From a virus: a stretch of DNA of 54,511 nt. The stretch is taken from the IMG/VR virus record IMGVR_UViG_3300009082_000303, positions 1 to 54,511 of that record. The stretch is one strand, 5' to 3'. The notes beneath the pieces were generated by a model. It saw only the letters and a program-made list of their open reading frames with translations, ran no database searches and had not been told where the DNA came from. The position numbers and the translations under genes are program-made. The first letter of the stretch is position 1; each line of letters opens with the position of its first letter. Of this stretch, positions 1,793 through 34,555 are shown one piece after another.

Positions 1793-4700
1793 TTACATAG
1801 ACTTTATAATAGGTCTACCCTCTAATTCAAATAGTTCTACTACATCAGTTTCACTTGTATTATTAAGCTTTGTCTCTGGCCCACTACTGCTATTCTCACT
1901 GCCTATAACAAGAAGATATATTTTACCTGTTAGGTCATTAGCTTTCCCACTTGTAATTATCGCATCATTAAATAGATAAGCCTGAAAAACTTTCTTCGTG
2001 CCTAGTGCAGATGTCCATGCTGTGCTATTTTCGTAAAAAATCTCAGGAGTCTGAACCCCAAGTCTAAAAATATCATTTTTACCTAAAGTAAGCAAGAAAT
2101 TATATCTCCCTCTACTATTAGTTTTTGACGTACTTCCCAAGATGAAATCATTCGTGATTGTATCGAGAGGGTCCTGTATTCGTACTTTTGGACTCGTTTC
2201 ATAAAAAGAAGCTTCTGGCAAAGTTACAATATTTAGTGGGGAAGATTTACCCGTATAATCCTCAATAGTATGAGTCGGCATCCTATCTATTATGTTAGAT
2301 ATGTTGTTAGCAGGAGTATCTAATCTAATTATCTCATATTGAGTACTAACTGAATCTTGTACATAAGTTTCAGCCAAAGTAATCTGCGTATCACTATCTA
2401 CGCTAAGTATACGATAATAATAAGATCCTAATGTAACTCTTATATAATCTCCATTTTTTACCTTATTTGACCAATAAGTATTTGTACCAACAACGTCTCT
2501 GCTACCTTTTAAGAAAGCACAGGTACCCGTAGTATATGTATAGTCTGTAATAGCACCAGAACCTTCTGAAGTGATTATTGCTGGGGCTTCAGCTTCAATT
2601 CTACCATACTTCACAGAATTCAAAATACCCTGATAAGGATTTAGCTTATAAAAAATATTATAGGCACTTTCACCTGAGGATATATAGCTATGCACTAATA
2701 CAGGAACTTTTATTGTAGCCCCCTCTGCATTAATATCTTCAGCATGAAGCTTAATTCTTGTAGGTAACCATGTAATATCCGTACCATCTTCAGGAGTCTC
2801 TAATACAGGAAGATTCTCATTAACATCTAAAGTAAGTGTTGTGTAACGAGATAAATCAGTAAATGTCTCCGAAGATCCTACAGTATAATATCCATAAGCC
2901 TTACCAATCGTAAATCCACTTTGTGTTAATGTCCTGGAAGCTATCGCAATAATAGGTTTGTCACCTGTGTCTATCCAAAAGTTTCCAGTTCCGTCTGCTG
3001 TTGCTGTTACTTCAATCATCTCATAAATGTCAGTGATTCCTCTACCCTGTTTTGACATCTCAAAAAATTTTATTGAATCCGCTATAGATGCACCTGAACC
3101 AGTATACAAAGCTATCTTTAACTTACATGGAGTAGCTGGAAGTGTAGAGATTATTTCAATAGAATAGACTACTGTGGTGCCTGTAGTGCTTCTCTGTATT
3201 GTGAACTCAAGATTATTCCTATAATCTCCAAATCCTGTGGTTCCTTCAGCTTGAATACTTTTCACTCCAAGTATAATATATCCATTTAGTTTTTTATTGT
3301 CACATGTTATACTTATACTGGTTCCAGAATTTAATGTTCTAAATACAACTAAGTCATGCCCAAAATTATAGTTTTCTGTGTATTGACCGCCACAATAATG
3401 AACATAATCCTGTTCATTAGTCACTGCGTCTGAAATACAAATACCGTTCGTATCAAACTGTAAAGGGTTCAAACTATTATCAGACCTCAATAAAACATCA
3501 TTATCTCGGGTAGCTATAGGAACTCTTACATCTTTTGATATCTCATAAAATTCTTTAGGAACATCTTTTAATCCATTATTTCCGGCATTGTACTCATAGG
3601 TAAACTGCATATAAAGAACTACAGTGCTTGATTGCCCTATCATATTGGAACCTGCATCAATAGTTACGGTAGTACCGTTACAAGTGATTCCAGTAACAGG
3701 AGCACCAAGGTCAGGGGCATAGAAAGAATTATTAGAAGATGAAACAGTACCATTTGTAGTATCAATAAAAGAAGATACTGCAATAGGCTCTGCAATCCAA
3801 GAGCTTCCAGAGGGCCCATTTGCAGGAACAGCAATAATATTGTTATCTTTTGTAATAGCACAGTTTGCATATACTCTTTTCTTGAAAGCAGAACCAGATA
3901 CCCCGCTTCCAATGTTCGGAGCATCTATAGTATTACCGTTAACCTGTTCAAGTTTCAAAAGTTTTGAGCCGCCAGAATTTACAACCCTGACACCGCTTAC
4001 TCCAAAACCCTTACTCTTTGTAGTGGTGAGTTCTCCAGCTACGAGCTTTCTAAATGTTCTTCTTGCTATAAGATCTAAATGTTGCCCTGAGGTAACTATC
4101 TGATGCCTTATATCAATAATATCCGTGTTATTCACTATATTTAGATATAGAGCATCTGGTCTGTCTGACCTAAAACCTGTAATCAGTTCTGATTGATTTA
4201 TTCCGGCACCATGTGTTTGCGTGGAACCAAAATCGGATTCTGCTCTGCGATATACAATGTACATAGGAATGGCGTAAACATATCCATCAACAGTATTCAA
4301 TGTTTCTTTATCATCATCAGAACCTGTACCAGCAATATATAAACCTGGATCTTCAGAGCCAAAATTGGAGAATGCTAACGATGTGTAGCTTCCTGAGCTA
4401 TTGCCTCCTACAGCTTTAACCATACTAGAGCCAAGTCCTTCAGGGTATGCATCAAAATCTACAGGATTTATATAGTAAGAACTTATGTAAGTTCTTATTC
4501 TATACTGTATCTGTACTCTTTTTGTAGTTTCATACCCAAGCCTATCCCAAACTATCTCATTATCCGTCAATGGTATAGCCTGAGTATTACCATAAGGATA
4601 TATGTTATCATTTTCCCCTATAAGCTTTTTCCATACTTCTAAGAAAACCAAATCATACCTATAGCTACTACCAGAAGGTGGTGGAAGAGTGATAATATTA

Positions 4701-5092
4701 TTCTCATCGGAAGAGTTAGAACCAGAAATTACAAGAGGCCACCCATTAACAACTGCCACGTTACTATCGCTACGAGATATAAGTTTAAAGCTATTAGCTG
4801 CGTATGTTTTTGATGTTAGAGTTTGACCACTACGTGCTCTATCTTCAGAATTTTGCTCAGTTGTATAATCTATAGCATTTAAAGCATTGGTATCTTCTAC
4901 TGTATCAACTTTTAACCAGCCTGAAGGCATAATAGCCTTAAGTCCTTGTTGCTGCTTAAGAGAGGCTATCTGATTTATTAGATTAAGTTCAGATGTAAGA
5001 CACTGACGTGTTTCCTGGAATACAACATTATCCAGGTTACGTCCGTCTACATCAAGAACGCGGCTCTGTAAATTTCCAAAGTTATCACTCAT
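1793..5092 (-). CDS. Large tail/baseplate protein (1099 aa), paralogue of the propeller-bearing protein at 25937-30367
   Basis: Two ATGs lie 6 nt apart; I chose the second (5092) because AGGA sits 7 nt before it and almost touches the first. The N-terminus has a VVFQETRQCLTSELNLINQ segment matching VFFQKGKPPLSSELNEAQQ in the 1476-residue protein. Both then share MPSGWL, VNGWP, FLEVW, ETTKRVQIQYRIR, DGY.(Y/W)AIPM and DIIDIR, and end in similar (R/K)PI(I/V)(K/R).M tails, so they are full-length paralogues. This copy lacks the beta-propeller. Around residues 856-924 it has a small beta-barrel-like insertion (FLKGSRDVVGTNTYW... DTQITLAETY) that also appears near the N-terminus of the 3395-residue giant. 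A virion role as a tail or baseplate-attached protein is inferred from context and architecture. Confidence 0.85.
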   Translation of the reverse strand: MSDNFGNLQSRVLDVDGRNLDNVVFQETRQCLTSELNLINQIASLKQQQGLKAIMPSGWLKVDTVEDTNALNAIDYTTEQNSEDRARSGQTLTSKTYAANSFKLISRSDSNVAVVNGWPLVISGSNSSDENNIITLPPPSGSSYRYDLVFLEVWKKLIGENDNIYPYGNTQAIPLTDNEIVWDRLGYETTKRVQIQYRIRTYISSYYINPVDFDAYPEGLGSSMVKAVGGNSSGSYTSLAFSNFGSEDPGLYIAGTGSDDDKETLNTVDGYVYAIPMYIVYRRAESDFGSTQTHGAGINQSELITGFRSDRPDALYLNIVNNTDIIDIRHQIVTSGQHLDLIARRTFRKLVAGELTTTKSKGFGVSGVRVVNSGGSKLLKLEQVNGNTIDAPNIGSGVSGSAFKKRVYANCAITKDNNIIAVPANGPSGSSWIAEPIAVSSFIDTTNGTVSSSNNSFYAPDLGAPVTGITCNGTTVTIDAGSNMIGQSSTVVLYMQFTYEYNAGNNGLKDVPKEFYEISKDVRVPIATRDNDVLLRSDNSLNPLQFDTNGICISDAVTNEQDYVHYCGGQYTENYNFGHDLVVFRTLNSGTSISITCDNKKLNGYIILGVKSIQAEGTTGFGDYRNNLEFTIQRSTTGTTVVYSIEIISTLPATPCKLKIALYTGSGASIADSIKFFEMSKQGRGITDIYEMIEVTATADGTGNFWIDTGDKPIIAIASRTLTQSGFTIGKAYGYYTVGSSETFTDLSRYTTLTLDVNENLPVLETPEDGTDITWLPTRIKLHAEDINAEGATIKVPVLVHSYISSGESAYNIFYKLNPYQGILNSVKYGRIEAEAPAIITSEGSGAITDYTYTTGTCAFLKGSRDVVGTNTYWSNKVKNGDYIRVTLGSYYYRILSVDSDTQITLAETYVQDSVSTQYEIIRLDTPANNISNIIDRMPTHTIEDYTGKSSPLNIVTLPEASFYETSPKVRIQDPLDTITNDFILGSTSKTNSRGRYNFLLTLGKNDIFRLGVQTPEIFYENSTAWTSALGTKKVFQAYLFNDAIITSGKANDLTGKIYLLVIGSENSSSGPETKLNNTSETDVVELFELEGRPIIKSM

Positions 5093-5104
5093 TTTCATTT
5101 CCTA

Positions 5105-6088: not shown

Positions 6089-6089
6089 A

Positions 6090-6671: not shown

Positions 6672-6770
6672 AATTTTTCCTTTTTATTCTATAAAAATGA
6701 CCAAAAATAACCTATACCTATAAATAGTACTTTTCATTAGTAGATTATTAGGGAACGTGAGACTTTAAAT

Positions 6771-6810: not shown

Positions 6811-6829
6811 GAAACTTTTCTACTCATAC

Positions 6830-18733: not shown

Positions 18734-21700
18734 TTATATCTCCAAGTCTGATCTGTCTATACTCATTAAATCTTTAATCCATTGTTGATGAATAGTAAAT
18801 CCTATACCAACTCTCCAATTATACAGATTAATTCCAGTATTAGTTTCATAAAGATACGGGCAATATACATTTCCACCGCCTATTCTTACTGCTTTTGTTC
18901 TTGCTATGGAGAACTCTAAACCTTCATCATCTAACCCATCTTCCGCTTCTAATCTTTCCCCATCTACATAATACATCATATGCCCGTCATCATCTAAACA
19001 AATATAACTAATAAAATGCCACTGCTTATCATCAAGTTTTATATCTATAGTCTTAGCTATTAACTTAGATTTAGAACCAGAGAATTGTAACCTGAAATCT
19101 GTTCCTTCTTTTTTTATCTCTAACCTGAAAGAAGCATTTGTATCTAAGACATCTCCATATGGATCAGAAACTACCATAGGATACAATACATGACCTTCTG
19201 CTACTAACGGATTTTTTATCCATCCAATACCTACAAATTTTGTACTAGTCTTGAGTCCCCTATCCAGAACATTTATAAAAGCTTCCTTAGAAATTGAAAC
19301 AGTCTCTTCCGGCTGGGCATCAAAATAGAAGTCTCCTATTCCAAGTCTAGTTTCATTAAAAGGGCCTGATGGAATAGAAGAGAAATCTTCAGAACCAATA
19401 ACAATTCTCTTTCCCCAAATGGACCACTTTGCCCACTTTGTAGGATCAGGGTTAAACCCTGTTAAACCACCGCCTGTTACACCAGCATCCCAAGCGGGCC
19501 ATGGTTCCGGGTTATCATACCCGAATTGTACTCCAGTATAAGAGGCTATTCCTTCTACTTCCGAACCAAATCTATTCTTTCCGCCATGATTACAGACACT
19601 ATGCTGTATAGAGAATTGAGATTCACTTAATGAACCTGTTACTCCTATATCTTTTACATCCATGAAACAATTATTAAATTCTGATTTATACCCAATATCA
19701 TAATTTAATATTAAGTTACTCGGGCCTGCAATTATATTTGATCCATTAAAAGTAGCATCCCCAATCATTGTGAGAATACATTTATCCTTTACTCTTATGC
19801 TAGTAGTTTTGACTACCCCATGAACACCTAACTCTAACCCTGCTGTACCATCTTCATTTACAAACTCTGTCTCAAGAATCAAATTTGAACAATCACTTAT
19901 ATTAAGAACAAATGTAGACTGAGAAGGATCAGATGCCTTTATTCTCCAGGGACCGTATAAACTATAATCCCAGGCATCTAAAGTAAATCCTATCTTATCT
20001 ACATAGTAGGGGTCGGTTTCAGTAAGAAGCCTTGCCCCTCTTATTTTATAAGGTAAAGTGTCATCTGTAGCACTAACAAACTCTGTATAATTAAGCGGGT
20101 CACTTGCGGTACCTATTCCTCCAGAGGTATTTATATTCAAATCAACATAATAAGCATCTCCTGGAAATTCTATTATTATGGGACCAAGAGTTATGGTATC
20201 ACTACCTCCAGGCCCTGTAACTGTAAGCCTAATATTCCTTTCCCCTACTTCAGTATACTGATAGGTTGGATTCTGCAGATTACTGGTACCTAAGCTATCC
20301 CCAAAATCCCAATCCCACGTCGAGATATTAGTAGACGAAGCATCAGTAAAAGCCACAGCCAAAGGTAACGGCCCAGACGTGGGGGTAAATATAAAGTTAG
20401 CTTTTGGTTTTATCGATATCGTAGCTGTTTTAGTACTAGTATTACTAGGCCCAGGACCTGTAACAGTAAGAGTAATAGTATATACGTTATTAGTTAAATA
20501 TGTAATAGTATGAGGCCCCTGTGTCGAAGCCGTGTCCCCATTACCAAAATCCCACGCCCAAGAAGTAGGACTCCCTGTAGAGGTATCCGTGAAGGTTACG
20601 TCTAATGGATTCTTTCCAGTTGGTGGCGTAAACGTAAAATTTGCTGTTACATTATTATATACAGTAATTAAATTTATTTGTTGCTGACTATCTATTAAGC
20701 CATCTGTACCTGTTACTCTTAATGTAACGCTATATGTTCCTGCTGTTGCATATGACTTTGCTATAGTAGAACCAGTACCAAAAGTACTATCTCCAAAAGT
20801 CCAATCCCAATTAGTTATCGTTACTGTAGAACCTAGCCCATTAAAAGATATAAGTTCTCCTGTTAGTGCAGATGTAGAACTAGCATAAAAAGAAGCTAAA
20901 GGTCTTACAGATACTACTCTTTCTTTATAGCTACTACCTCCAGGCCCTGTTACGGTATATCGTACAGTATGTTGCTTATTAAGTGTATATACATGCGTAG
21001 GGTTTGTAGCAGGAGAATGTGAGGAGCCATCTCCAAAATCCCAATCTCGTGAAGATATAGTCCCCCCTGAAGAGTTATCAGTAAAGCTAACTGTAAGAGG
21101 AACTGTTCCACTTGATGGATTATATGTAAAATCCGCTACAGGAGCATCAGGAGGAGGAGGAGGAGCTGGATTAACAACAATTAGATTTGTGCGAGTGAGT
21201 GAATCTGTTAATCCATCTATTCCCGTAGCAACAAGGGTAACACTATACGTTCCTGCGGAACTGAATGTATGTGAAACAATCGAGCCCGTTTGTGTCGGCC
21301 CATCATTAAAATTCCATGTCCAGTTAGTTACGGTAACCCCAGACCCGGTACCATTAAAAGTTACTGAATCTCCTGCTGTTATAGTTGTTGTAGAGACTGG
21401 GGTAAAATATGCTTTAGGCTTTACAGGAAGGATCTTTGTTAAGCTTCCCGTCCTTTCTACATCCCCACATAGATGAGTCGCATAAAGAACTACATTATAA
21501 TTTCTATTATTAGAAAAAGTATGAGTAGTATTTTGCGTTAAGTCATGTGGGGTACCATCTCCAAAATCCCACTCCCAACTATTTATAGGCCCTGCATAAG
21601 TTGCACTACCAGATAGGTTAAAGCTAGTTGTATTAGGGTAACCTGTTGTAGGGTTAAAACTTATACTTACAACTGGGACTCCTGGTGGAGGTGGGGAATA

Positions 21701-23599
21701 CGATACATCTACATATGATCCTACTGTATGACTATCTATACCATTAAAACGTACAGTTAGTGTTACATACCAATACCCAGGCAATACATACTGGTGTGAT
21801 ATAGTAGGATTTGATACAGATTGTACTGGACTACCATCCCCAAAATCCCATATGTAACTTGATATATTAGTATATGAGCTACTAGCATCAAATGTTACGG
21901 ACTCACCTTCAATAATAGTAGTTGCTGATTTAGAAAAAGAAGCAACAGGTCTTATATTAACTTGTACTGTAGCGCTTGAGCTTCCTCCTGAGTTACTGAC
22001 TGTCAGAGTAACTGGAAAACTTACATTTTCCGTGGAAGTAACTGTAAAAGAAGATCCTGTCCCAGTATTCCCTCTTCCATCGCTCCAACTACGGGAAGTA
22101 ATAATTCCTGTTGATACATCATTAAAAGTCATAGTATAAGGCATATTGCCTGTAGGTACTGAAGAAGGAGATATAGCAGCTACAGGTGGTATTACTGCTA
22201 TTGCAGTTATATAGTTAGTCTTAACATTAAGTACATCATACGTAGGGGCAGCAATATTATATATAGGGCCATAATTAACTCCACAAAATCCAACAAAGGT
22301 CCCGCAAAATCCTACACTATACGTTCCTGCGGAACTATACTCATGCGTAGGATTGGCTGTATTTAGAAGAGTTGTTGAATCCCCAAAACTCCACTCTGAC
22401 GTATTTCTTAGTATCCCCTGAGAATAACTTAGGTCGCTAAAAGCTACTGAAAGAGGAACATTACCTGATGTAGGGCTACCAGAAAAATCCATAACATTAC
22501 TAATAGCTCCCCTATCGAGTAAACCTTTTCCTGTGCCTCTACAAGGAGATGGTATAGTAAGTTCAAATCTTCCTTCAGCAGCATCTAAAAATAAAGGGTC
22601 AGCGTATAAGGTACTAGTCTCTGTAGTTACTGTAGGAGCATAAAAATATAAGGAATCTAACCTACTCCTTATGTCATTATATAGCAAATTAACAGGTATT
22701 AGTATTACAGCTTCATGCCATGAACCAGCAGGAGGGGTATTATTATTCCATAATATATTGTTAACTAAATCTATAGAGTTACCACTTATACCATCTATAA
22801 ATAATCCACCTCCATAGGCTGCGGCGTTAGCATAAAAAGTATTATTTACTATGGACTCGCCATAACCCGCCCCTGGAACTTTTATACTATAAAATAGCCC
22901 ACCACCCGATCCTGATGTAGTACTAGAGAAGTTTCCTACAAATAAACAGTTTTTTACAAGAGTATTATCCTCGCAGTATACAGCACCGCCTAAAGTTGTA
23001 CTACTGTTACTAAAGAAAGCGCAGTTTCTTATAGTCGTTCTAACTAAGGGGCTTGCACTAGTAGCGTATATAGCTCCTCCAGGTCCCCCCCAAGCGGGGG
23101 ATATAGAACAACTATTAAAGTAGCAGTTCTCTACTGTACTACCTGAACCAATAACTAAAGCTCCACCTGCATCAGCTGCTACGCAGTTTAAGAAAATACA
23201 GTTTCTAATAGTTACAGTTCCACCTGTTATCGCTCCACCACTAGATACGTAGGAAGATATTGAGCCATATAGGTCAAAAAGAAGACCATCATATGTTGTC
23301 CCCGATGCGGAGAACTGAAAAATTCCAGAATAATTTTGTATAAAACGAGCAGGATGGGTAAGAACATCACGCTGAGTTAAAGCAGTTTCGGTGCCTGCAA
23401 ATCCACCATATATTTTCAGATTACTTTCATTTACTACATAAGTACCTGTATAAGGATGAGCATCACCATTATCCTTTAACCAAATCTCATCATTAGAAAA
23501 TGCGGCACTAAGAGCGCTACTAAGGCTACTATAGGCATTAACCCAAGATGTACCATTATTTGCACCTGTAGCCAGATTACTTACATATATAATTGCCAT
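18734..23599 (-). CDS. Giant adhesin-like protein: parallel beta-helix, nine PKD domains, YGPW module, LamG-like domain (1621 aa)
   Basis: Residues 1-~365 form a right-handed parallel beta-helix with recurring strands such as TIRNCIFLNC, TVENCYFNSC, TIRNCAFFSNS and NNTFYANAAAYGGGLF, like bacterial Pmp-type repeat proteins. About nine PKD domains follow (~370-1140) with WSFGDS, YIWDFGDG, WEWDFGDG, RDWDFGDG, WAWDFGNG and WDWDFGDS signatures. Residues ~1145-1400 carry one YGPW module (DAWDYSLYGPWRI). Residues ~1430-1621 look like a LamG/concanavalin-like domain (QWHFISYICLDDDGHMMYYV, RTKAVRIGGGN). The ATG at 23599 has AAGGA 7 nt upstream, 2 nt after the preceding stop. It probably binds surface polysaccharide. 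The first half resembles bacterial secreted proteins, so transfer of domains from a host is plausible. Confidence 0.85.
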   Translation of the reverse strand: MAIIYVSNLATGANNGTSWVNAYSSLSSALSAAFSNDEIWLKDNGDAHPYTGTYVVNESNLKIYGGFAGTETALTQRDVLTHPARFIQNYSGIFQFSASGTTYDGLLFDLYGSISSYVSSGGAITGGTVTIRNCIFLNCVAADAGGALVIGSGSTVENCYFNSCSISPAWGGPGGAIYATSASPLVRTTIRNCAFFSNSSTTLGGAVYCEDNTLVKNCLFVGNFSSTTSGSGGGLFYSIKVPGAGYGESIVNNTFYANAAAYGGGLFIDGISGNSIDLVNNILWNNNTPPAGSWHEAVILIPVNLLYNDIRSRLDSLYFYAPTVTTETSTLYADPLFLDAAEGRFELTIPSPCRGTGKGLLDRGAISNVMDFSGSPTSGNVPLSVAFSDLSYSQGILRNTSEWSFGDSTTLLNTANPTHEYSSAGTYSVGFCGTFVGFCGVNYGPIYNIAAPTYDVLNVKTNYITAIAVIPPVAAISPSSVPTGNMPYTMTFNDVSTGIITSRSWSDGRGNTGTGSSFTVTSTENVSFPVTLTVSNSGGSSSATVQVNIRPVASFSKSATTIIEGESVTFDASSSYTNISSYIWDFGDGSPVQSVSNPTISHQYVLPGYWYVTLTVRFNGIDSHTVGSYVDVSYSPPPPGVPVVSISFNPTTGYPNTTSFNLSGSATYAGPINSWEWDFGDGTPHDLTQNTTHTFSNNRNYNVVLYATHLCGDVERTGSLTKILPVKPKAYFTPVSTTTITAGDSVTFNGTGSGVTVTNWTWNFNDGPTQTGSIVSHTFSSAGTYSVTLVATGIDGLTDSLTRTNLIVVNPAPPPPPDAPVADFTYNPSSGTVPLTVSFTDNSSGGTISSRDWDFGDGSSHSPATNPTHVYTLNKQHTVRYTVTGPGGSSYKERVVSVRPLASFYASSTSALTGELISFNGLGSTVTITNWDWTFGDSTFGTGSTIAKSYATAGTYSVTLRVTGTDGLIDSQQQINLITVYNNVTANFTFTPPTGKNPLDVTFTDTSTGSPTSWAWDFGNGDTASTQGPHTITYLTNNVYTITLTVTGPGPSNTSTKTATISIKPKANFIFTPTSGPLPLAVAFTDASSTNISTWDWDFGDSLGTSNLQNPTYQYTEVGERNIRLTVTGPGGSDTITLGPIIIEFPGDAYYVDLNINTSGGIGTASDPLNYTEFVSATDDTLPYKIRGARLLTETDPYYVDKIGFTLDAWDYSLYGPWRIKASDPSQSTFVLNISDCSNLILETEFVNEDGTAGLELGVHGVVKTTSIRVKDKCILTMIGDATFNGSNIIAGPSNLILNYDIGYKSEFNNCFMDVKDIGVTGSLSESQFSIQHSVCNHGGKNRFGSEVEGIASYTGVQFGYDNPEPWPAWDAGVTGGGLTGFNPDPTKWAKWSIWGKRIVIGSEDFSSIPSGPFNETRLGIGDFYFDAQPEETVSISKEAFINVLDRGLKTSTKFVGIGWIKNPLVAEGHVLYPMVVSDPYGDVLDTNASFRLEIKKEGTDFRLQFSGSKSKLIAKTIDIKLDDKQWHFISYICLDDDGHMMYYVDGERLEAEDGLDDEGLEFSIARTKAVRIGGGNVYCPYLYETNTGINLYNWRVGIGFTIHQQWIKDLMSIDRSDLEI
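19400..20165 (-). repeat. Fifth YGPW module (in the 1621-residue protein)
   Basis: This segment starts DAYYVDLNINTSGGIGTASD and carries DAWDYSLYGPWRI, like the four modules in the 1871-residue neighbour. It is followed by a RLGIGDFYF motif that matches RLGVGAFYF at the end of the fourth module there, so the two proteins share a longer block, not just a motif. Confidence 0.65.
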
Positions 23600-24872: not shown

Positions 24873-25931
24873 TTAAACTGTTATGTATTGTGAAAAAGTA
24901 TCTGAACCGACTGAATTCGTTGTTGTTAAACTTACTCTATATGTCCCGGAGCTACTGAAAGTATGCTCTGTATTTCTTGTAGCACTTTTGTAAGTATCTC
25001 CAAAATCCCACATCCACTCCTCTGGGTAGTACGTGCTACTATCCAGAAACCTAACCTTCAAAGGATTTGTACTATTTATAGTATACGTAAAATTTGATAT
25101 TGGTTTAACACTTATTTTTATCCATGCTGCTACTATCCCTGTACCTGTAAGCCCTAGATACGTATTTCTCTTAAATCTTGATGGCGCTCCTTGGTATTGT
25201 ACAGAAAAACAGCCATCGACGATACCTGATTCTAAAGTATAAAAAGAAGCCCCAGTAATACCTATATCCCACTGTAGGTCTCTTTCATATATAGAATAGT
25301 CTACTAAAGTTTCATCATCATTTTTAAACTTAAGGTATAACTGTAAATCTTTATCTGGGTACCATCCAGTTGAACCCTGTATACCGTAGAAACCTGTTAA
25401 TCCTAAACCTGTATCTCCCTGTAACCCATTCTGACCAGTATATCCTACGTGTCCTGTATTACCTAATATTCCTGTATTACCTAATACTCCAGTACTACCT
25501 AAATCTCCTTTAGCACCCGTTGTTCCTTTTATCAGTTCATCACTAATCGTAAAAGTAGCCATCTGTGAGTATTCGTTCAAAGATATTACTTCGGTAGCCC
25601 TATTCCTATTATAAAGAATAAACTGAGCTATCGGGATGTGGTTTTGTATTACCTTATGTGATATAGAAGTAACAGATGTGCTAAATATTCCTACATTATC
25701 AAAAATAAACTTACCTGTTTCTATCTTATAATATACATTCACTACAGCATATTTATTAGCATCTTTAGGCAAATCAAAAAACTGTTGTGAGCTTATAGGA
25801 ATGATAAGATTATTTAATGATACAAAAGTATTATTATAAAGTACGGTGCCAAGATTAACTACATAATTTGTAGTACCATCTATACCTTTTACTATAGATA
25901 TAGTATTTGATTTATTTGTCTTTAGTTCCAT
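24873..25931 (-). CDS. Fibre-like protein: anchor domain, collagen-like segment, beta domain, PKD domain (352 aa)
   Basis: The N-terminal ~134 residues resemble the anchor domain of the 300- and 215-residue fibres in layout but are more diverged. Residues ~135-192 are collagen-like (GTTGAKGDLGSTGVLGNTG and following). A beta-rich segment (~195-270, DLQLYLKFKNDDETLVDYSI) looks like the start of a LamG domain. It is interrupted by a C-terminal PKD domain (~274-352, EEWMWDFGD). The neighbour's LamG-like part could complete that domain, which hints that the two genes were once one. The ATG at 25931 follows an AGGA lying in the end of the upstream gene. It is probably a host-binding fibre. Confidence 0.82.
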   Translation of the reverse strand: MELKTNKSNTISIVKGIDGTTNYVVNLGTVLYNNTFVSLNNLIIPISSQQFFDLPKDANKYAVVNVYYKIETGKFIFDNVGIFSTSVTSISHKVIQNHIPIAQFILYNRNRATEVISLNEYSQMATFTISDELIKGTTGAKGDLGSTGVLGNTGILGNTGHVGYTGQNGLQGDTGLGLTGFYGIQGSTGWYPDKDLQLYLKFKNDDETLVDYSIYERDLQWDIGITGASFYTLESGIVDGCFSVQYQGAPSRFKRNTYLGLTGTGIVAAWIKISVKPISNFTYTINSTNPLKVRFLDSSTYYPEEWMWDFGDTYKSATRNTEHTFSSSGTYRVSLTTTNSVGSDTFSQYITV

Positions 25932-25936
25932 CTAAA

Positions 25937-28900
25937 TTACATCCTAACTATAGGCTTATTCTGTAATCTATAAATACCTACAGATGTCTCAGCTGTTTCT
26001 GTATACCCAGGTTGATACTCTATATCATCATCCTCGAAGAATCCAACCTGATTTTCAGTTCTTGCTCTGTATACCTTTGAGAATATAAGGAGAACTAACT
26101 CCCCTCTTACAAAAGGAGAAATTATATCAGACCTTATTCTGGCAAGCATAGGAATGAAAACTTTTCTTGGATTAGCAACAGACATATGCTCAGCTTGTAT
26201 TCTGAACTCTTCGCTACAAGCTGCATAGTAGGCCCTCCCAAGTTTATCTCCAACATTGTTAGGTTGAGATAATGTAAGGGAGGACCCTACTGTTCTACCT
26301 ATTATTGCAGGTAGTTTTACAAACCCTGAATCTATACTGAAGTTGCTAAAATCTAAATCATCCACGTTGGTAAACATATTTTCACTCAAGAAATCTGGAT
26401 CATTAACCGGAATGTTATCTATAGGACTTTCATATGGCTCACCTTTAATATCCGGTGTTGCTCCGGTTCCAAGGTTAGAGATATATAAAAACTCAGAACA
26501 TTTCATAATTTCAACATCCAAACTGTCTGGCAATGAATTGAGAGTCTGATATGGGCGATATCTATATAAGATATTAGTTGTAGTTGTTTGAGTCAAATTC
26601 TCAAAAGTTATCTGTTTGACTAATAATGGTACATAGATAGTCCCAGAATGGGTTGTCACTCTAGGATCTATTCTAAACTTAGCCGCCACCGTTCCCATAC
26701 CTGTTATATCAGGTTCATCATCCGTAGGACTTATTGAAAGGATAGGAAGTACTGTATATACTGTCTCATCCGGTATTATAGAAATTTCAGGATACCAAGC
26801 AAACATCTCATACTGCTTCTCACTTGTTGAAAAAGAGCTTATACCAAGAATAAGACCATTCAGTAGTTCCGGGAAAGCGGAGCTAGCATTCCTTAGATCA
26901 ATAGTAAACTCCCTCTGATCGTCAGTAGTCAACAATACAGGGAACAGAACAGACTTGTAAAAACCTTCTATACCCTTTGAGCTAACATTAAAATTGACCA
27001 TATAAGGCGCTCTCAATGCCTGCTGGTTCTCTCCCTTATGATTTAAAGGAAGACCCAAATCATTAGCGGTGGTAGCGTCAGAAGTTGTTGTAACTTCCAT
27101 AACTACTTCCACAATAGTATTTGAGGGCACCACAAAAGCTTCATCGAGATAAATCAATATGTAGGTCTTATCGACCCCAGAATCAGTAAGTTCCCTATCT
27201 CTTAAAGAACTCCAAGTCCTGAAATCTTTAGAAATCTTATATACAGAACCGTTTATACTTGAAACACTTTTGACTGAAAAAACCCCATATCCGCTAAGAT
27301 TCTTCGGCACTCTAATAACACTTGTCGGTTCAATTGCCTGGAAGAAGTAATGGTATTCAACAAGGGAGCCTCTGAATTGTTGACCATGAAATTTCCTTAA
27401 CGACCTCTTAAACTCTATATCATTCTCAGGTAGATTTCCTATATCCTTATATAGATTCTGCATATCAACAGTATTCTGTATAGTCTTTGCTGAATAAAGA
27501 ATAGTGTAGTCCTTATACCCAGATACTCTCTCATCAAGATATTCTATAACCTCGTCGTTATTAAATACATTTATTCCTCTGTAGAACAATGAGCTATTTG
27601 TGTCGTCTGGGATATATTTCATCCCCAAAGGCTGAACAGGTATTCTGGATAATCCAACCCCTGAAAAATCAAGGTAGGTTGCAGTTATCTGATACTGTAT
27701 ATTATCTCCTGTTGGATTATTTCCAGTAAGAGTAAAGACGACAGAATCTGTTCCCAATCCTTCCCAGGTTCCTTGAACACGTTCACTTGTTACCGCAGAG
27801 TCTCTTATAATAAAGGCGCTATATAGTGCCGTCTCATTGATATACAATGCTTTTTCTCTAGGGCCAAATGTTAGCTCAGTCTCAACAGGGGTGATATTAG
27901 AATTCACAGTTTTGATATCATCTCGTATCACTGCCGTAGAAGATACAGCACCAGTAGCCAGATTAGTTATATCTCCGATACCAGTATAAGTATCTACTGA
28001 GAGGATAGAAGTACTAAATTGAGTTCCCCTGTTATCTTTATTATCTATCTTTGTTTTAAGCTGATTCTGAAGAAGAAGATCTAAATTCTTCTCAAGAATA
28101 CCACTCATAGTATTTACTACAATCTTTCTACGTATATCTACTATATCATCACTAACAATTTCAGTATATGTTAGCCCGTCAGGTCTAATAGCATTTAATT
28201 CATAATATGTAGAACCATTTATGTTAGACTCAATATTGAATGGTGAAGAATTCCTTCTTGATACAAAGAACATAGGAATAGCCCAGCTGTACCCATCATG
28301 AGTATTTCTGCAACGAGATCTCCACAATCCGTAGTCTCCATTACTACTCCCCATATTTTCGAAAGTGTAACTTCCAGCATCAGTTATTCCAGTATTAGGA
28401 CCCATACTATAAACGTACTGCGCCCCTAATCCTGCTTCTGGGAAATTGAAAGGATCAATACCATCTACTACTCGTATTCTATACTGTATTTGAACCCTTT
28501 TTGTTGTCTCTACTCCTACATTAGGGTCTATCATATTATCTTCTAAATAGTCTGTAGCTTCAGACTGTATATTACCTTCAGGATAAATTCTTCCTTTAGT
28601 CCTTACTTCTAAATCTGAATCCTGTTCTTCGTATTGATTATCTATATTATTAGGATCATATTTTATGATTGTTCCCTCATATCCTACTACCCATCCTAAA
28701 GCCTCATTAACAAAAAACAAATCGTATAGGTCTACTCCCGTACCCGCGCTAAGTACTCTCCATTTAGCACCGCTATTTTCTGTAGTGATAAGTAATCCAT
28801 TAGACCCACAAACCCATGCTCTATCTTGAATAGAAAAACTAATATCTGTAGTTGTTCGATTAGGAATAACACCAGAAGAAGGTCTAAGCTCAGAAGGCTT

Positions 28901-30367
28901 ATTGATAGGGGCAAAATCAACAACAGATTGGAAAACTCTAATTTTCTGCCTCGATGCATCAGGCAGCGCAGCATCTGAGGCAAGATAAGGGCTAGTAACA
29001 GCGTTGATAGCATCTCTAAGCTCTTCTGCATTAGCATAGTTATCCAAATTAAGGACTTCTATATAGCTCCTTCTATCTTGAACTCCTACCCACTCAAGGA
29101 CTAAAGCGTTAGGGTAGTTAGTTGGTGATATTTTATAGGAGGCTGAAGAGAAGAAACTCCTTGAATTAGGATATATTGTTACAGAGAAATCAAGAGGAAA
29201 TTCTTTTTGAATAAAAATACTATATAATGTATTTTCTTTTGTTGGATATAAAGTCGTAAGAGATGCATACTCAGTACCCGTCCATATATTATTGGTCATA
29301 TTTGACCAAGATCTTCCCCCATCTGTAGTCTTTAATATAATGCCATTTCTACCAATGACTAAACCGTCATTCAGATTAAAAAATGCTACAGAGGTTAAAT
29401 CCTCTATTACCTGCAGGCTATTCGATGCATCGATTATAGTTTGAGATGTCCAAGAATTTCCACCATCATTTGTAATAAGTAAAGTGCCAGTATCTCCTAC
29501 TACCCACCCTACTGCTGTATCAAAGAAAAAGACACCATTGAAGTTTGTAGAAATACCACTAGTCTGCTCAATAAGTTCAAAATTTGTACCATCAATAGTA
29601 AGCAGAACTGTACCGCTATCACCTACAACACATACTGTTGTATCATCTATGATATATAAGTCATTAAGAACATTAGTTATGTTAGTAGTAATCACTGTCC
29701 AACTTTCTCCACCATTGACCGTCTTAATTATATACCCGTTGTTACCAACAGCATATCCTAAGTAAGCATCATGGAATTTAACTTTATTGAAAGTTACTGC
29801 AACAGGAGTTTCTTTTGATACCCAATTATTACCACCATCTATAGTTTTAAGTATAACACCGTTATCCCCAAGCGCCCAACCAATCTGGTCATTAAACATA
29901 TAAACTGTATTAAGGTTACTAACTTTACGAAGATTCTGAGGTTTGGATTCACTTGTTCCCGGAGAAAGCAAAGATCTCCAAACTTCTAAGAAAACTCCAT
30001 CTACTCTACTTCCAGAGCGAAGCTCAAAATCAGATAGATTAATAGCATTAACGTGTGGCAAAGATGTTCCTGTATTGGTTACATAGATAGGCCATCCATT
30101 TACCAAAGCTACCTCAGGTTTGGAACCCTCAGGGTCCTGAGTATAGAAGTAGTTCTCTAAAGATTTATCAGTGAAGAAGGGCCTGTAACTAAGCCACCCA
30201 GAGGGCATATGTGCCGTACTCTTCTGAGTAAGAAGCTCCAATTGCTGCTGTGCTTCATTCAGTTCGGAGGAAAGAGGGGGTTTACCCTTCTGAAAAAATA
30301 CTTTATCATAGGCATAACCAAGGCCATCATATACACTAAATACTTCATTTCCTAAATTCTTAGCCAT
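25937..30367 (-). CDS. Large tail/baseplate protein with an inserted seven-bladed Ycf48/BNR-like propeller (1476 aa)
   Basis: The framework is the same as the 1099-residue protein at 1793-5092: VFFQKGKPPLSSELNEAQQ, MPSGWL, VNGWP, FLEVW (~126-130), then ETTKRVQIQYRIR (~620-632), DGYSWAIPM, DIVDIR and a KPIVRM end. Between FLEVW and IYPEGNIQ lies an insertion of ~450 residues with seven blades of the form GW(A/V).G..G.I..T.DGG..W, at about 163, 204, 245, 287, 335, 517 and 558. A further nested segment (~365-505) sits between blades five and six. Ycf48-type propellers assist photosystem II assembly in plastids and cyanobacteria, but relatives occur widely in bacterial surface proteins. Here a binding role is more likely. 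ATG 30367 has AAAGGA 8 nt upstream. Confidence 0.85.
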   Translation of the reverse strand: MAKNLGNEVFSVYDGLGYAYDKVFFQKGKPPLSSELNEAQQQLELLTQKSTAHMPSGWLSYRPFFTDKSLENYFYTQDPEGSKPEVALVNGWPIYVTNTGTSLPHVNAINLSDFELRSGSRVDGVFLEVWRSLLSPGTSESKPQNLRKVSNLNTVYMFNDQIGWALGDNGVILKTIDGGNNWVSKETPVAVTFNKVKFHDAYLGYAVGNNGYIIKTVNGGESWTVITTNITNVLNDLYIIDDTTVCVVGDSGTVLLTIDGTNFELIEQTSGISTNFNGVFFFDTAVGWVVGDTGTLLITNDGGNSWTSQTIIDASNSLQVIEDLTSVAFFNLNDGLVIGRNGIILKTTDGGRSWSNMTNNIWTGTEYASLTTLYPTKENTLYSIFIQKEFPLDFSVTIYPNSRSFFSSASYKISPTNYPNALVLEWVGVQDRRSYIEVLNLDNYANAEELRDAINAVTSPYLASDAALPDASRQKIRVFQSVVDFAPINKPSELRPSSGVIPNRTTTDISFSIQDRAWVCGSNGLLITTENSGAKWRVLSAGTGVDLYDLFFVNEALGWVVGYEGTIIKYDPNNIDNQYEEQDSDLEVRTKGRIYPEGNIQSEATDYLEDNMIDPNVGVETTKRVQIQYRIRVVDGIDPFNFPEAGLGAQYVYSMGPNTGITDAGSYTFENMGSSNGDYGLWRSRCRNTHDGYSWAIPMFFVSRRNSSPFNIESNINGSTYYELNAIRPDGLTYTEIVSDDIVDIRRKIVVNTMSGILEKNLDLLLQNQLKTKIDNKDNRGTQFSTSILSVDTYTGIGDITNLATGAVSSTAVIRDDIKTVNSNITPVETELTFGPREKALYINETALYSAFIIRDSAVTSERVQGTWEGLGTDSVVFTLTGNNPTGDNIQYQITATYLDFSGVGLSRIPVQPLGMKYIPDDTNSSLFYRGINVFNNDEVIEYLDERVSGYKDYTILYSAKTIQNTVDMQNLYKDIGNLPENDIEFKRSLRKFHGQQFRGSLVEYHYFFQAIEPTSVIRVPKNLSGYGVFSVKSVSSINGSVYKISKDFRTWSSLRDRELTDSGVDKTYILIYLDEAFVVPSNTIVEVVMEVTTTSDATTANDLGLPLNHKGENQQALRAPYMVNFNVSSKGIEGFYKSVLFPVLLTTDDQREFTIDLRNASSAFPELLNGLILGISSFSTSEKQYEMFAWYPEISIIPDETVYTVLPILSISPTDDEPDITGMGTVAAKFRIDPRVTTHSGTIYVPLLVKQITFENLTQTTTTNILYRYRPYQTLNSLPDSLDVEIMKCSEFLYISNLGTGATPDIKGEPYESPIDNIPVNDPDFLSENMFTNVDDLDFSNFSIDSGFVKLPAIIGRTVGSSLTLSQPNNVGDKLGRAYYAACSEEFRIQAEHMSVANPRKVFIPMLARIRSDIISPFVRGELVLLIFSKVYRARTENQVGFFEDDDIEYQPGYTETAETSVGIYRLQNKPIVRM
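28643..29929 (-). other. Seven-bladed propeller insertion inside the 1476-residue protein
   Basis: These bases encode residues ~147-575. Six of the seven blades show the full or nearly full GW..G..G.(I/L)..T.(D/N)GG..W signature; the third and seventh lack the final Trp. The segment is absent from the paralogue at 1793-5092, where FLEVW is followed almost at once by IYPYGN, so the borders are well defined by comparison. Confidence 0.75.
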
Positions 30368-30369: not shown

Positions 30370-33300
30370 TTATAATCCTTTTTTGACCGCTGAATCCTCT
30401 ACTATATCTATGTCCTTCAAACTTACAGAATCTACTAACAAATACTCTATCTCACTTGTTGTTATATCATGGGACAATATCTCATCAGCTGGATATAAGA
30501 CATAGTATGCTGCTTTGTAATTCTTAGTCTGCGGAGGGGCTCCATCTTTTGTGCTTACAACGATCTTCCCATCAGCCTGTATATAGGCTCTTCCTGGCCC
30601 TTTAGCTACATCATTCGGGTTAGTCATAAGAAGAAGAGTTATATTATCTTCATATATAGCTCTGAAAAGATTAGATTCCCCACCGTTTTCAGTTGTGCTG
30701 TATGTAAGAGCACTGTTAAGAGTCCTGTATGATGTGACTCCACTACTACTTGTTCTCTGGTACACTTCAAAAGTAAGATTTCCGAGATCATCTAATGGAA
30801 TGAAAGAGCCATTTCTCTTCATCATTCTCTGTAGAGGTAGTTGAACACTTTTTACCCCAGGCACTTTCCTTACGACATCAACAAGAGCCGATTGAGTAAA
30901 AGTCTCTCCCATCTTAAGTTTATCAAGATAATTAGATATAGATGTCTGGATACGAGACTTCATTATAGTTCTATCCGATTCGATAAATCTTTGATCAACA
31001 CTCCCTGACTTTACAACGACCATACTTAAGTCTATTTTATTTCCTATAGCCTGCTTAACAAGAACATCAGCTGTCGCATGCTTCATACTATCTACGGAAG
31101 TCTGAACCTGTGAAATAAGACTATTTGCTGTGTAAGTTACCAAGAAATTTTCATTAGCTTGATAATCTACTGAGACCCTGGCTCCAGATCTTATTTTACT
31201 AAACTGAAGTAGATTAACGTAGGTGCTATCCACCTCACTGCCTACTGTGATAGTATAATCTATGTTGTTTTTATATATAATAGTCAAATCCTCGGAATTC
31301 TTAACTACTATAGATGAAAGGTCCACTCCCTTTAGATTCAGTTGAGCGGGAAGATTAAGTATCATATCATGGAGTTCCCCAGTTACCGTCCTAAATTCAA
31401 TATCAGTCTGTCCAAAAACTCTTTCATTATCTTGAAATAAGAATTCTATCCCATAACTTGACAATGACGACTCCCCTGTTAAAAGAGGATCTTCTAACTC
31501 TACAAGCCTGTATTGGTCCTGTGGAACCTGTGACCCATCTGACCTATAGACAGAAACGATATCTAATACAGGCTGATGTTGCAAAACAAGAACATTAGAA
31601 CTTATATAAGTATAGTCTACCTCTATAACATCCAATGTAGCCATACCTATCACTAAATTTGTCTGATTAGGGGATAACAGTATAGTATCACCATCTCCTA
31701 TGATACTATAATTAGTAAGGCTGTAATCTTTTCCTCTTGTTATATTTCTTACCCTATTAACAATAACAATCGGTGTTGTAGATGTTACTTTTGGATTTTT
31801 TGTTATTACTCTAAAATCAGAGGCGCTAGTTACAAAGAACTGCTCTCCCGTCTGTTTCCCATAGACATCAGTTGGATGCTCAAACTTGAAAGCCACCTGG
31901 TCTGCATACTGTAATACACGACTTCCTTTTATATATAGGTCTACTTTACCACCAATATGTTTATTGGAATCAGCATCAAAATCTCTTACCATGAGACCGT
32001 CGCCCGCTACTTCAGTCCTTACCTGTTCTACTCCTGGTATGTCCATAGCGACTCTTGCATACCCTGCCTCAGTCCCTCTATCTACAGATGCTATACCAAG
32101 TTTGCATCTCTCTACTAATTTGGTATTGTTTTCTCTATTCTCTCCAAAATCGGTAGGATCTTCATTTACTACCTGAACTGTAGATGGTAGGCCAGTAACT
32201 ACAGTTATTGAATTAGCTGGAACATTTCCGCCAAATCCTGCTAAGGGAGCCTCTATATCTGCTACTATTTCATACCTATTTTTTATAGTATTGAAATAGT
32301 ACTCAGGGTTTGAAGCATCGATTATTCTGGTGCCTATGACTGAGAAATTTACAGAATTTATTCCTTGGGAAGAATCTCCTGGATAAGTAACTATTGTCCC
32401 ACTCGATATTATGATACTGGTAGTAGGAGCGCTATTAACATAAAATGTGACTTTTCCACGAGATTTAGTTGCTTCATTTCTTATTATATTATAATCAGAT
32501 GCCTTCTTATCAAACTGATCATCTATTAATACCTGAAGAGTGGCTCCATCCTTTATATTTAAAGCGTCCGCTAATCTCTTCTTACCTATATTATAACTCA
32601 TAGGGTCACTGACCCCATCTCCGTCACTGTCATCAAAAGTTAGTAAAGCATCTAAAGATAGTATCTTAAACGCAAAATCTTGAATTACGTAATATCTTTC
32701 AAACTCATTAGATACAGGATCTATAGTATCCCTTACTACAGATCCACCTATAACATTAATTACATTATTATCGCTCATTAATGTCTTTGATATGGAAAAA
32801 AGAACATCAGAACGAGACCTTCCAGGTAAGTCTCTAAATTGAGAAGTCAGATTTAAAAATCCACCCTCTAACTCAACAGAGAAGCTACTCTCAATCACTT
32901 GATTCAAAGACCTATCAAAAGCTACTGCTGTAGCTGCAAAATAATAAATGATATCTTGATTAAGAGTCGCGCCATCAGAAAGAAATACATTAGATATCTT
33001 TCCCTCTGTTACCAGTCTTGTAAGTACCACTGAGGTAAGGGAAAAAGTGAGATATTCGTTATCTACCTGCCTTGTTTTTATAGTCTGAACTGTAATATCC
33101 CCTGTGGTATCCGTAATCGAGGTATCTGCTATAGCTACTGTTTCTGTTTCAATATCATCTATCTCAGTAACGTAGGTTTCATTCATTTGGACATAACCGT
33201 TAGACCCACCACCAGGGGTAAGACTTACATAGAAGTTCACACCTACTATATCACTGTTTGAATTAGGAGTAATGGCATCAACTGGAACCATTACTTTTAT

Positions 33301-33783
33301 AGTATCCTTAGCTCTTTTTATCTTTACCCCAGTAGGTATACCTATACTTGAAGTTATGGAGGTATCCCTAACTAAACTTGCAGTAACAGAGGAAGTAGTA
33401 CTTTCCTCTATAAAATATCCTGGGCCCTGATTAACACTTATTCTCTTTACTGTTTTAAACTCAAAAAGTATACTATCCCCATTTAAAAACTCAACTATTC
33501 CGTCTGTACTTAGATACCACGGAATCTCAGTTACATTAATATATGTTGTTCCTACTGTAATACCTGTTGTAGTCCAATTAGAATAGGGGTCTGTAACTCC
33601 GTCTCTTGTAAGCAGGTACCTAAACTCTACGGTAAAAAAAGCATTGTCTTCTAATGCCTCGGGGTCAAAAGGAATAGTCCCTGAAATATCCTGTACAAGA
33701 TTAGAGGTATAGTATATACTACTCGTACCTGGAGATGTCCAAGAAGTTATAGGATACAGTATTATAGGGGATGCTACTGTCAT
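30370..33783 (-). CDS. Baseplate J-like protein, large variant (1137 aa)
   Basis: Residues ~520-650 carry the J-like core: VPANSITVVTGLP, then ENRENNTKLVERCKLGIASV, GTEAGYARVAMDIPGVEQV and KVDLYIKGS. This pattern is typical of baseplate J/gp47/T4 gp6-family proteins, which form the ring of wedge arms. The C-terminal part (KSRIQTSISNYLDKLKMGETFTQSALVDVVRKVPGVKSVQLPL) is also typical. At 1137 residues it is much longer than P2 gpJ (about 300) or T4 gp6 (about 660). It has extra beta-rich N-terminal sequence and a segment at ~673-728 shared with the 3395-residue giant. Its ATG overlaps the preceding stop (TAATG), so it is translationally coupled to the gp25-like gene, the usual order for these two. 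Confidence 0.85.
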   Translation of the reverse strand: MTVASPIILYPITSWTSPGTSSIYYTSNLVQDISGTIPFDPEALEDNAFFTVEFRYLLTRDGVTDPYSNWTTTGITVGTTYINVTEIPWYLSTDGIVEFLNGDSILFEFKTVKRISVNQGPGYFIEESTTSSVTASLVRDTSITSSIGIPTGVKIKRAKDTIKVMVPVDAITPNSNSDIVGVNFYVSLTPGGGSNGYVQMNETYVTEIDDIETETVAIADTSITDTTGDITVQTIKTRQVDNEYLTFSLTSVVLTRLVTEGKISNVFLSDGATLNQDIIYYFAATAVAFDRSLNQVIESSFSVELEGGFLNLTSQFRDLPGRSRSDVLFSISKTLMSDNNVINVIGGSVVRDTIDPVSNEFERYYVIQDFAFKILSLDALLTFDDSDGDGVSDPMSYNIGKKRLADALNIKDGATLQVLIDDQFDKKASDYNIIRNEATKSRGKVTFYVNSAPTTSIIISSGTIVTYPGDSSQGINSVNFSVIGTRIIDASNPEYYFNTIKNRYEIVADIEAPLAGFGGNVPANSITVVTGLPSTVQVVNEDPTDFGENRENNTKLVERCKLGIASVDRGTEAGYARVAMDIPGVEQVRTEVAGDGLMVRDFDADSNKHIGGKVDLYIKGSRVLQYADQVAFKFEHPTDVYGKQTGEQFFVTSASDFRVITKNPKVTSTTPIVIVNRVRNITRGKDYSLTNYSIIGDGDTILLSPNQTNLVIGMATLDVIEVDYTYISSNVLVLQHQPVLDIVSVYRSDGSQVPQDQYRLVELEDPLLTGESSLSSYGIEFLFQDNERVFGQTDIEFRTVTGELHDMILNLPAQLNLKGVDLSSIVVKNSEDLTIIYKNNIDYTITVGSEVDSTYVNLLQFSKIRSGARVSVDYQANENFLVTYTANSLISQVQTSVDSMKHATADVLVKQAIGNKIDLSMVVVKSGSVDQRFIESDRTIMKSRIQTSISNYLDKLKMGETFTQSALVDVVRKVPGVKSVQLPLQRMMKRNGSFIPLDDLGNLTFEVYQRTSSSGVTSYRTLNSALTYSTTENGGESNLFRAIYEDNITLLLMTNPNDVAKGPGRAYIQADGKIVVSTKDGAPPQTKNYKAAYYVLYPADEILSHDITTSEIEYLLVDSVSLKDIDIVEDSAVKKGL

Positions 33784-34529
33784 TAACTAGCTATCCTTTG
33801 TCTAAGTTGACTCAACTCAAGAAGTTGAGTATATTCTAACTTTTTTCCACTTTGAGCTGTAAAACTAACTACAACCTGCAAAGTAGTAGGGTCTGTTTGA
33901 TCCTGTTGAACATCAACGGAAAGAAGCTGTCCAAATAATTCTCCCGATGAAACTGGACGACCAGTAGCCACCAGCTGCTTCTGCATGTCCTTCAGTTTAT
34001 CTATTGTCGTATTTATTTCTTCAGTTATCTTAGTAGTAAGTAATTGACCGTCTAAAATCTTCATACCTATCATATCTTGTAGTCCAGTACCCATCCATGT
34101 CTGATACTTATTACTCCCTAACCTTGTAACTATATACTTTTCAACGTTTTGTATAAGAAGAAACTCATCTCGCGTAGTTAGTAAGTCTCCTCCAGAAGTA
34201 TATGTAAGATCATCCAAGTATCGGGCTCCTTCACACTTTGGGCAAGAATTAGTAAAAGTTGTATAGCTTACCTCTATAATAGGATTAAAAATTTTTATCT
34301 TCTGCCTCAAGGATAAATATGACATTTTTTGTAGTGTAAGGTCTGTTGTATCTTCCTGTACACTATAGGCACTCTTATCTACTAATATAAAATTAACCTT
34401 AAGAGCTACGGATGCTTTAGAAGCTATTGGATATGTAACGTCTATTCTCTTAGCATCCAAGCTTAAGACACCTGTATCCCAGTTTATCTTATGGTCACAC
34501 TTATTCTGTATTTTTAAATCGATAGACAT
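33783..34529 (-). CDS. Baseplate wedge protein, gp25/W-like candidate with possible zinc site (248 aa)
   Basis: The start is ATG 34529 (MSIDLKIQNKCDHK), with GAGG 7 nt upstream; an in-frame TTG four codons earlier is less likely. The C-terminal ~150 residues have the general layout of gp25/gpW-type wedge proteins (LLTTRDEFLLIQNVEKYIV, NKYQTWMGTGLQDMIG, then a final pair of strands). The family's hallmark EPR motif is not evident. The N-terminal half has C-x-H near residue 10 and CPKC near residue 92, which could bind one zinc ion. Its place directly before the J-like gene, with a TAATG overlap, supports a wedge role. The assignment rests on context as much as on sequence. Confidence 0.65.
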   Translation of the reverse strand: MSIDLKIQNKCDHKINWDTGVLSLDAKRIDVTYPIASKASVALKVNFILVDKSAYSVQEDTTDLTLQKMSYLSLRQKIKIFNPIIEVSYTTFTNSCPKCEGARYLDDLTYTSGGDLLTTRDEFLLIQNVEKYIVTRLGSNKYQTWMGTGLQDMIGMKILDGQLLTTKITEEINTTIDKLKDMQKQLVATGRPVSSGELFGQLLSVDVQQDQTDPTTLQVVVSFTAQSGKKLEYTQLLELSQLRQRIAS

Positions 34530-34555
34530 ATAAAGCCTCAATAATTAGGAGATTA

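Follow-up and report, generated by a model that had tools for sequence, protein, structure and literature searches.

A predicted seven-bladed propeller of the Ycf48/BNR type inserted in a DUF4815-like protein of a large phage, and a paralogue with an empty insertion site

Results and Discussion

A complete seven-bladed propeller, related to Ycf48 and other BNR-type proteins, is predicted within a 1476-residue protein (hereafter A) encoded in the virus record IMGVR_UViG_3300009082_000303, which was analyzed as a whole (54,511 bases; the window). It is inserted into a framework that the window encodes a second time, in a paralogue (B) where the same place is occupied by nine residues, and is itself interrupted by another domain, so that the architecture of A is an insert within an insert. 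The 131-kilobase (kb) contig IMGVR_UViG_3300027792_000292 comes from the same virus: the 20,428 bases compared are identical to the window.

Borders of the insert

BLASTP aligns residues 1–164 of A (E-value 1e-12, with the alignment overrunning the insert border) and residues 594–771 (2e-20) with B, which comprises 1101 residues from the first ATG and 1099 from the next one. The FLEVW peptide is found at residues 126–130 in A and 152–156 in B, and IYP begins at residues 594 and 166, respectively; the link from FLEVW to IYPEGN is 463 residues long in A and 9 in B. The borders reported in the original prediction, made from the DNA sequence alone (links of about 460 and about 15 residues), are thus confirmed, and the segment it had delimited, positions 28643–29929, corresponds to residues 147–575 of A, that is, the propeller. 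Its further claim that the two proteins share a full framework holds for the N-terminal part and residues 594–771, but is overstated as a whole, since the C-terminal halves of A and B yield no BLASTP alignment.

Fold of the insert

The insert matches the Pfam model PF14870 (PSII_BNR) with 106.8 bits (E-value 1.6e-30, cut-off 27) and the sequence of the Ycf48 structure 2xbg with an E-value of 2.9e-18; in a profile search with seven aligned inserts, Ycf48 structures were matched at 2.6e-28. An AlphaFold2 model of A, computed from an alignment of A with its relatives, 25 rows in total (mean predicted local distance difference test, pLDDT, 80; predicted template modelling score, pTM, 0.57), features seven four-stranded blades at residues 152–581, with pLDDT mostly about 90. 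The top-ranking Foldseek matches are Ycf48 structures (5ojr, E-value 6.3e-13; TM-scores by target length mostly about 0.7). VIA-align superposes the propeller on generic seven-bladed propellers with Z of about 28–30, and hence the predicted fold may be considered secure, but not specific for Ycf48. Both the fold and the Ycf48/BNR kinship proposed earlier agree with these results. The seven repeats of one motif that had been described correspond to seven predicted blades, but the motif is not uniform: its strict form matches once and a looser form four more times, with blades 3, 6, and 7 degenerate. A scan with the propeller of the window alone retrieved only the window's own virus.

Distribution and evolution of the inserts

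Framework relatives were collected from viral contigs with a framework profile (the best 80 of 114 were retained) and with a propeller profile. The latter yielded 35 loci, eight of which repeat rows already counted, and six, having no complete pair of the N- and C-terminal framework parts (L118, L119, and L122–L125), were left out of the counts and the tree. Three of these six, L119, L122, and L124, are truncated at the ends of their contigs but have the N-terminal part, the blades, and an upstream Baseplate_J-like gene (hereafter J); L118, L123, and L125 encode different proteins. The tree, constructed without the inserts and unrooted, comprises 90 framework rows, a few of them identical to others; L071 and L073 (short match to the N-terminal part) and L002 and L003 (repeat fragments of B of the window) were excluded from it. 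With the framework peptide as the sole pattern, a scan of genome contigs gave two Prochlorococcus loci.

The linker lengths of the framework relatives fall into three classes, 8–22, 124–140, and 402–511 residues. In the tree, 47 rows have the short linker, 15 have a small domain of 124–140 residues at the same loop, and 28 have the propeller. The 28 propeller rows form one clade (support 100/100) with no propeller-less row in it, the 15 small-domain rows form another (100/99), and each of the two characters changes once on the tree. The propeller clade contains a well-supported subclade of 12 rows (100/98), the support of the 16-row side being only 82/28. As the midpoint root falls among the empty forms, and two different domains would have arisen once each, the simplest interpretation is that each domain was gained a single time, one loss of the propeller being formally allowed by the unrooted tree. 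The earlier suggestion that the domain was gained as a unit is in line with the monophyly of the 28 propeller rows against 62 rows without it; still, the pair of an insert-bearing and an insert-free form was an incomplete picture, as the third insert class had been missed.

By profile, seven blades are counted in 26 out of 28 propeller rows; the counts of six in L065 and eight in L069 are probably profile artefacts. The small-insert domain recurs in other proteins of its phages (L076, L006, L041, and others) and looks like a mobile tail module; no Pfam family was found over the cut-off for three examples of this domain and no PHROG family for two of them.

The nested domain

The insert is not all repeat: a separate domain of about 125 residues, missed in the original prediction, splits blade 6 of A between strands a and b. 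It is compact in the AlphaFold2 model, with the order β-β-β-β-α-β, and matches no Pfam or PHROG family at E-values up to 1. In the 12-row clade the same site is occupied by a module of a different type, present as a tandem pair in L069, and profile comparison detected no relation between the modules of the groups of 16 and 12 rows. Matches to the module of the second clade extend to other proteins of related phages and, at a weak score, to the window protein encoded at positions 6830–11512. The nested domain resembles the 124–140-residue insert of the other lineage by eye, but their identity was rejected: hhalign gives about 0.1% for all three pairings of the two nested-module profiles and the small-insert profile.

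The framework and DUF4815 proteins

The model of B is based on 19 rows (pLDDT 79, pTM 0.81). Only two Foldseek matches of this model have E-values below 0.001 (6.5e-6 and 6.6e-5), and both are baseplate chains of phage phi812. VIA-align places the B framework on chain 9eui_Q with Z 8.0 (161 residues, root-mean-square deviation, rmsd, 3.8) and on chain 9euf_0 with Z 6.4 (rmsd 16.6). The latter is named “DUF4815 domain-containing protein,” and we infer that 9eui_Q is the same molecule. The profile of the N-terminal framework part matches the first 54 residues of the phi812 DUF4815 protein (hhalign 74%, pair E-value 2.7e-5) and, more weakly, proteins in the DUF4815 position in three cyanophages, one of them a confirmed DUF4815 protein; with S-SSM7, hhalign gives 24%. 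The C-terminal framework part shows no such similarity to phi812 or S-SSM7. Taken together, A and B are probable remote relatives of DUF4815 baseplate proteins.

Framework members have only scattered single matches in Pfam and NCBIfam besides the propeller models; ten out of 25 match the unnamed phrog_14489, and two match phrog_30274. Two other assignments of A were rejected. One was a homologue of gp7: on four whole gp7 proteins (two of S-SSM7, one each of S-8S53 and DSL-LC03), the profiles of the N- and C-terminal framework parts score at most 2.5 and –0.6 bits, respectively. The other was a counterpart of TmpF of phi812, which also follows J. Residues 852–926 of B (approximately positions 2321–2545) contain a 71-residue domain similar to those of tail tubes and tail tips (9n71_A, Z 8.1; 8k35_A, Z 7.0), and PHROG 1980 (tail fiber) matches the same residues.

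Gene order and contractile tails

A J-like gene, detected with a profile of the window's J protein, is situated directly upstream in all 28 propeller rows, which begin –79 to +16 bases from the end of the J-matching frame (counted stop to stop). PSII_BNR is over the cut-off in 14 out of 14 propeller contigs, in one reading frame of 1337–1504 residues each, and a second framework copy is present in 11 of them, with a linker of eight residues in the nine copies measured. The C-terminal domain of the tail sheath is over the cut-off in seven of these contigs; it was not detected in the other seven, including the 131-kb contig of the window's virus, which may be fragments. The tail location supposed earlier is supported, and so is, in relatives, a contractile tail.

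The framework is present, often twice, in all of 15 additional records that represent the other insert classes, and Baseplate_J in 13 of them. The small domain is carried by seven of these records, six of which have J. The small-domain copy lies on the same strand approximately 5–14 kb downstream of J in LR745208, G015, G017, G018, and G020, and about 38 kb away, on the other side of J, in G016.

Possible role of the propeller

In the main propeller clade (14 rows, 91 pairs) the mean identity is 0.515 in the blades, 0.499 in the nested domain, 0.664 and 0.673 in the two framework parts, and 0.497 in the C-terminal rest; in the second clade (11 rows, 55 pairs) the respective values are 0.514, 0.529, 0.593 and 0.587, and 0.411. 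By these comparisons the propeller is not hypervariable, and a hypervariable receptor binder was rejected, as the blades have diverged to about the same extent as the C-terminal rest in the main clade and less than it in the second one. The most conserved propeller positions are mostly motif residues, largely structural G, W, and F, and no additional surface site stood out in the conservation analysis of the propeller. As seven blades are stably kept at moderate divergence, a constitutive structural or docking role would fit at least as well as that of a variable adhesin. The original suggestion that the domain was acquired probably for binding has no direct support here.

Our tentative proposal, to which we would assign somewhat less than an even chance, is that the propeller is a rigid disc for docking, located at the periphery of the baseplate; direct binding to the host is a close rival. 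A and B would be paralogous baseplate proteins of a large contractile-tailed phage and distant DUF4815 relatives. The ancestor of the J-adjacent copy would have acquired the whole propeller, seven-bladed and of the Ycf48/BNR type, in the loop between two neighboring strands of the framework. The propeller ends, at blades 7 and 1, would tether the disc to the framework on one face, and the second domain, which differs between the lineages, would be borne on the opposite face, by the a–b loop of blade 6. Such a disc might fix another part of the virion (a fibre or an arm) or a surface ligand while the wedge rearranges. In the usual propeller topology the blade 7/1 tether and the a–b loop of blade 6 lie on opposite faces, suggestive of a disc placed between the framework and its cargo.

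Several observations weigh against this proposal. With a pTM of 0.57 for the model of A, the opposite-face argument is purely topological. As regards the kinship of the framework with DUF4815 proteins, the Z of 8.0 (9eui_Q) is at the edge of what the VIA-align notes call common, and the DUF4815 model PF16075 does not match any of 25 framework members at E-values up to 0.5 (compared with 1.1e-61 on a cyanophage DUF4815 protein). The propeller profile brought in 21 of the 28 propeller rows, and members that have lost the propeller could have gone unseen. The blades are more diverged than both framework parts in 91 out of 91 pairs of the main clade, as would be expected of a surface-binding domain, and in another phage (L118) a seven-bladed propeller from this family is situated at the end of a tail-fibre-like protein, where receptor binders are usually located.

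The last two points favor a domain that binds a receptor or glycan on the host surface and is displayed by the baseplate, a role that we regard as quite possible, if short of probable. Asp-box propellers are common in carbohydrate-active proteins. GH74 entries are among the Foldseek matches of the propeller, and a similar propeller is found in a protein of Caulobacter phage KSC annotated as tail fiber. A passage of PMC4901313 describes a five-bladed propeller in the receptor-binding protein of phage phi11, with a cavity that could hold N-acetylglucosamine. On the other side, no row of the clade is without the propeller, even though the sampling bias noted above applies to this count; the blades diverge about as much as the C-terminal rest or, in the second clade, less; and the most conserved positions are mostly those of the motif, with no additional surface site standing out.

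A neutral, bulky insertion that hitch-hikes in the protein with no specific role seems unlikely. The loop does tolerate inserts, being occupied by another domain in 15 rows and empty in 47, but seven blades are kept throughout the propeller clade at about 50% identity, and none of its rows has lost them. Least probable, indeed very improbable, is a glycosidase-like enzyme that clears surface polysaccharide. In its favor, Asp-box/BNR propellers include glycosidases (PMC2716378), and the F510_1955 glycosylhydrolase model matches with an E-value of 9.7e-7, but at 28.3 of the 175 bits of its cut-off; against it, no glycoside-hydrolase model is over its cut-off, and structural G, W, and F predominate among the most conserved residues.

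Beyond the docking disc itself, one may speculate, with rather more doubt than confidence, that the DUF4815-like loop is a standing socket (empty, or with a small domain, or with a propeller), that blade 6 is a second-order socket in which unrelated modules are swapped, and that at least three phage groups (the present clade, the cyanophages with their gp7, and L118) each acquired a Ycf48-type propeller of their own in a protein encoded at the gp6/J locus or close to it, which would point to a shared mechanical or docking job at the baseplate.

Other features of the window

The coordinates of A, B, and the adjacent genes are given in Table 1. They belong to a minus-strand cluster of tail and baseplate genes with very large proteins. 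The 252-residue protein upstream of J might be wedge- or gp25-like, judging by its position and weak PHROG matches (E-values 0.07–0.08).

Table 1. Features of protein A, its paralogue B, and neighboring genes; positions are those of the window.
Feature	Positions	Strand
Protein A, 1476 residues: DUF4815-like (probable) baseplate protein with inserted propeller	25937..30367	–
A, N-terminal framework part, residues 1–140; strand 121–134 bears FLEVW	29948..30367	–
A, propeller blades 1–5, residues 147–372	29252..29929	–
A, nested domain of blade 6 (between strands a and b), residues 387–512	28832..29209	–
A, remainder of blade 6 and blade 7, residues 513–589	28601..28831	–
A, second framework part, residues 594–770, from IYPEGN via ETTKRVQIQYRIR to DGYSWAIP	28058..28588	–
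Paralogue B, 1101 residues: framework of A with 9-residue link	1793..5098	–
B, empty insertion site, residues 157–165, in or beside the loop between strands 147–160 and 194–206	4604..4630	–
Baseplate_J-like protein, 2 bases upstream of A	30370..33783	–
Small protein upstream of J, 252 residues; relatives in most propeller loci	33783..34541	–

Two giant PKD-rich proteins of 1621 and 1871 residues, with nine and four PKD_4 stretches, are encoded at positions 18734–23599 and 13117–18732, respectively, and collagen-like GxTG proteins (24873–25931 and 11527–12429) are encoded close to them. The longest protein of the window, 3395 residues (37802–47989), is encoded upstream of the baseplate genes.

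Comparison with known systems

The best match of the phage insert by both sequence and Foldseek is Ycf48/HCF136 (2xbg, 5ojr, 8am5), likewise a seven-bladed propeller with PSII_BNR. However, Ycf48 is a free-standing exported lipoprotein, an assembly factor, and the phage propeller makes up residues 147–589 of a 1476-residue protein. Ycf48 of Synechocystis binds D1 via six arginines, R180, R196, R215, R219, R220, and R237, as stated in a passage of PMC10403576. When the phage profile is aligned with 8am5_S, its consensus has n, k, s, d, n, and d at these positions, that is, one lysine and none of the six arginines, and the score with the NCBIfam equivalog model of Ycf48 (NF010237) is 112.2 bits compared to the cut-off of 326. 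Hence, by its sequence, the phage propeller is not a Ycf48.

The fold had been thought undescribed inside a baseplate protein of a contractile phage, which does not hold. A passage of PMC4901313 places a seven-bladed propeller, gp131C of phiKZ (4GBF), at the periphery of the baseplate of this myophage, where it is the C-terminal domain of another protein; 4GBF is not among the matches listed in two structure comparisons or among 25 sequence matches of the seven-row profile. Cyanophage records named “baseplate wedge initiator” (gp7) also describe very large proteins with Ycf48-like blades near their end, in S-8S53 and DSL-LC03 and, by tblastn, in S-CAM9, S-8S55, S-8S56, and S-SSM7. A search with the DSL-LC03 stretch gave 16 phage records, of which 12 are named Synechococcus and several repeat one phage. 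Out of two gp7 stretches scanned, only that of DSL-LC03 passes the PSII_BNR cut-off. S-SSM7 has weak blades in the second gp7, two genes further on, rather than in the gp7 adjacent to gp6, and the BFVD match of its gp7 is weak by the blade profile. The gp7 position resembles that of A, which directly follows a J-like gene throughout the propeller clade: in S-8S53 and DSL-LC03 the initiator gene directly follows two “baseplate wedge subunit” genes, in place of which S-SSM7 has gp25 and gp6. The framework of gp7 is different, with framework profiles scoring no higher than the bits given above.

Other Ycf48-like proteins were seen at the collected loci. L118 encodes a 607-residue protein (5056–6879) with seven uninterrupted C-terminal blades (PSII_BNR, 121.8 bits), in the order J, a 234-residue protein, the propeller protein, and a fibre-like protein of 1044 residues. 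L123 (2836–10752) and L125 (1319–9217) encode proteins of about 2630 residues, each with at least two separate blade stretches. PSII_BNR is over the cut-off also in proteins of LR745206 and LR756504; a 1916-residue huge-phage protein of LR745206 (L005, 6939–12689) has a few Ycf48-like blades and a C-terminal W-x-x-G-x-W array.

The DUF4815 protein of phi812 (ORF65; 9euf and others) resembles the A/B framework in the 54-residue N-terminal profile match and may also share its N-terminal fold, to judge from chains 9eui_Q, 9euj_G, and 9euf_0, of which 9euf_0 alone is established as the DUF4815 molecule. Its gene differs in being third after J, rather than adjoining it, and the blade profile has no match in the 50-kb region of phi812 searched. 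Bacillus phage G (gp211) and Tunturi_5 (gp247) encode members of the same framework family, with linkers of 8 and 21 residues and no insert. The gene that follows the framework gene in Tunturi_5 (L009, 11283–16414) is annotated as “regulator of chromosome condensation,” a name suggesting another propeller; in the part read, Pfam gives only an Ig-like domain.

The propeller fold is therefore already known in phage baseplates, from gp131 of phiKZ and the gp7 wedge proteins of some cyanophages. Among the matches listed in a literature search, whose scope was mostly outside subscription journals, no description of a propeller in the A/B protein family was found. What is new, as far as we have seen, is where the propeller is inserted, that it has a domain nested in it, and that three states of one loop can be compared; these are known parts in a new arrangement. 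The three states (empty, small domain, propeller), together with the swap of nested modules, make a good test system for the building of complex baseplates from ready-made domains by large phages. As a lead that can be tested, a previously unnamed protein family of phage G and other large phages is linked to DUF4815 baseplate proteins. Phage proteins annotated as “photosystem II assembly factor” can turn out to be parts of tails.

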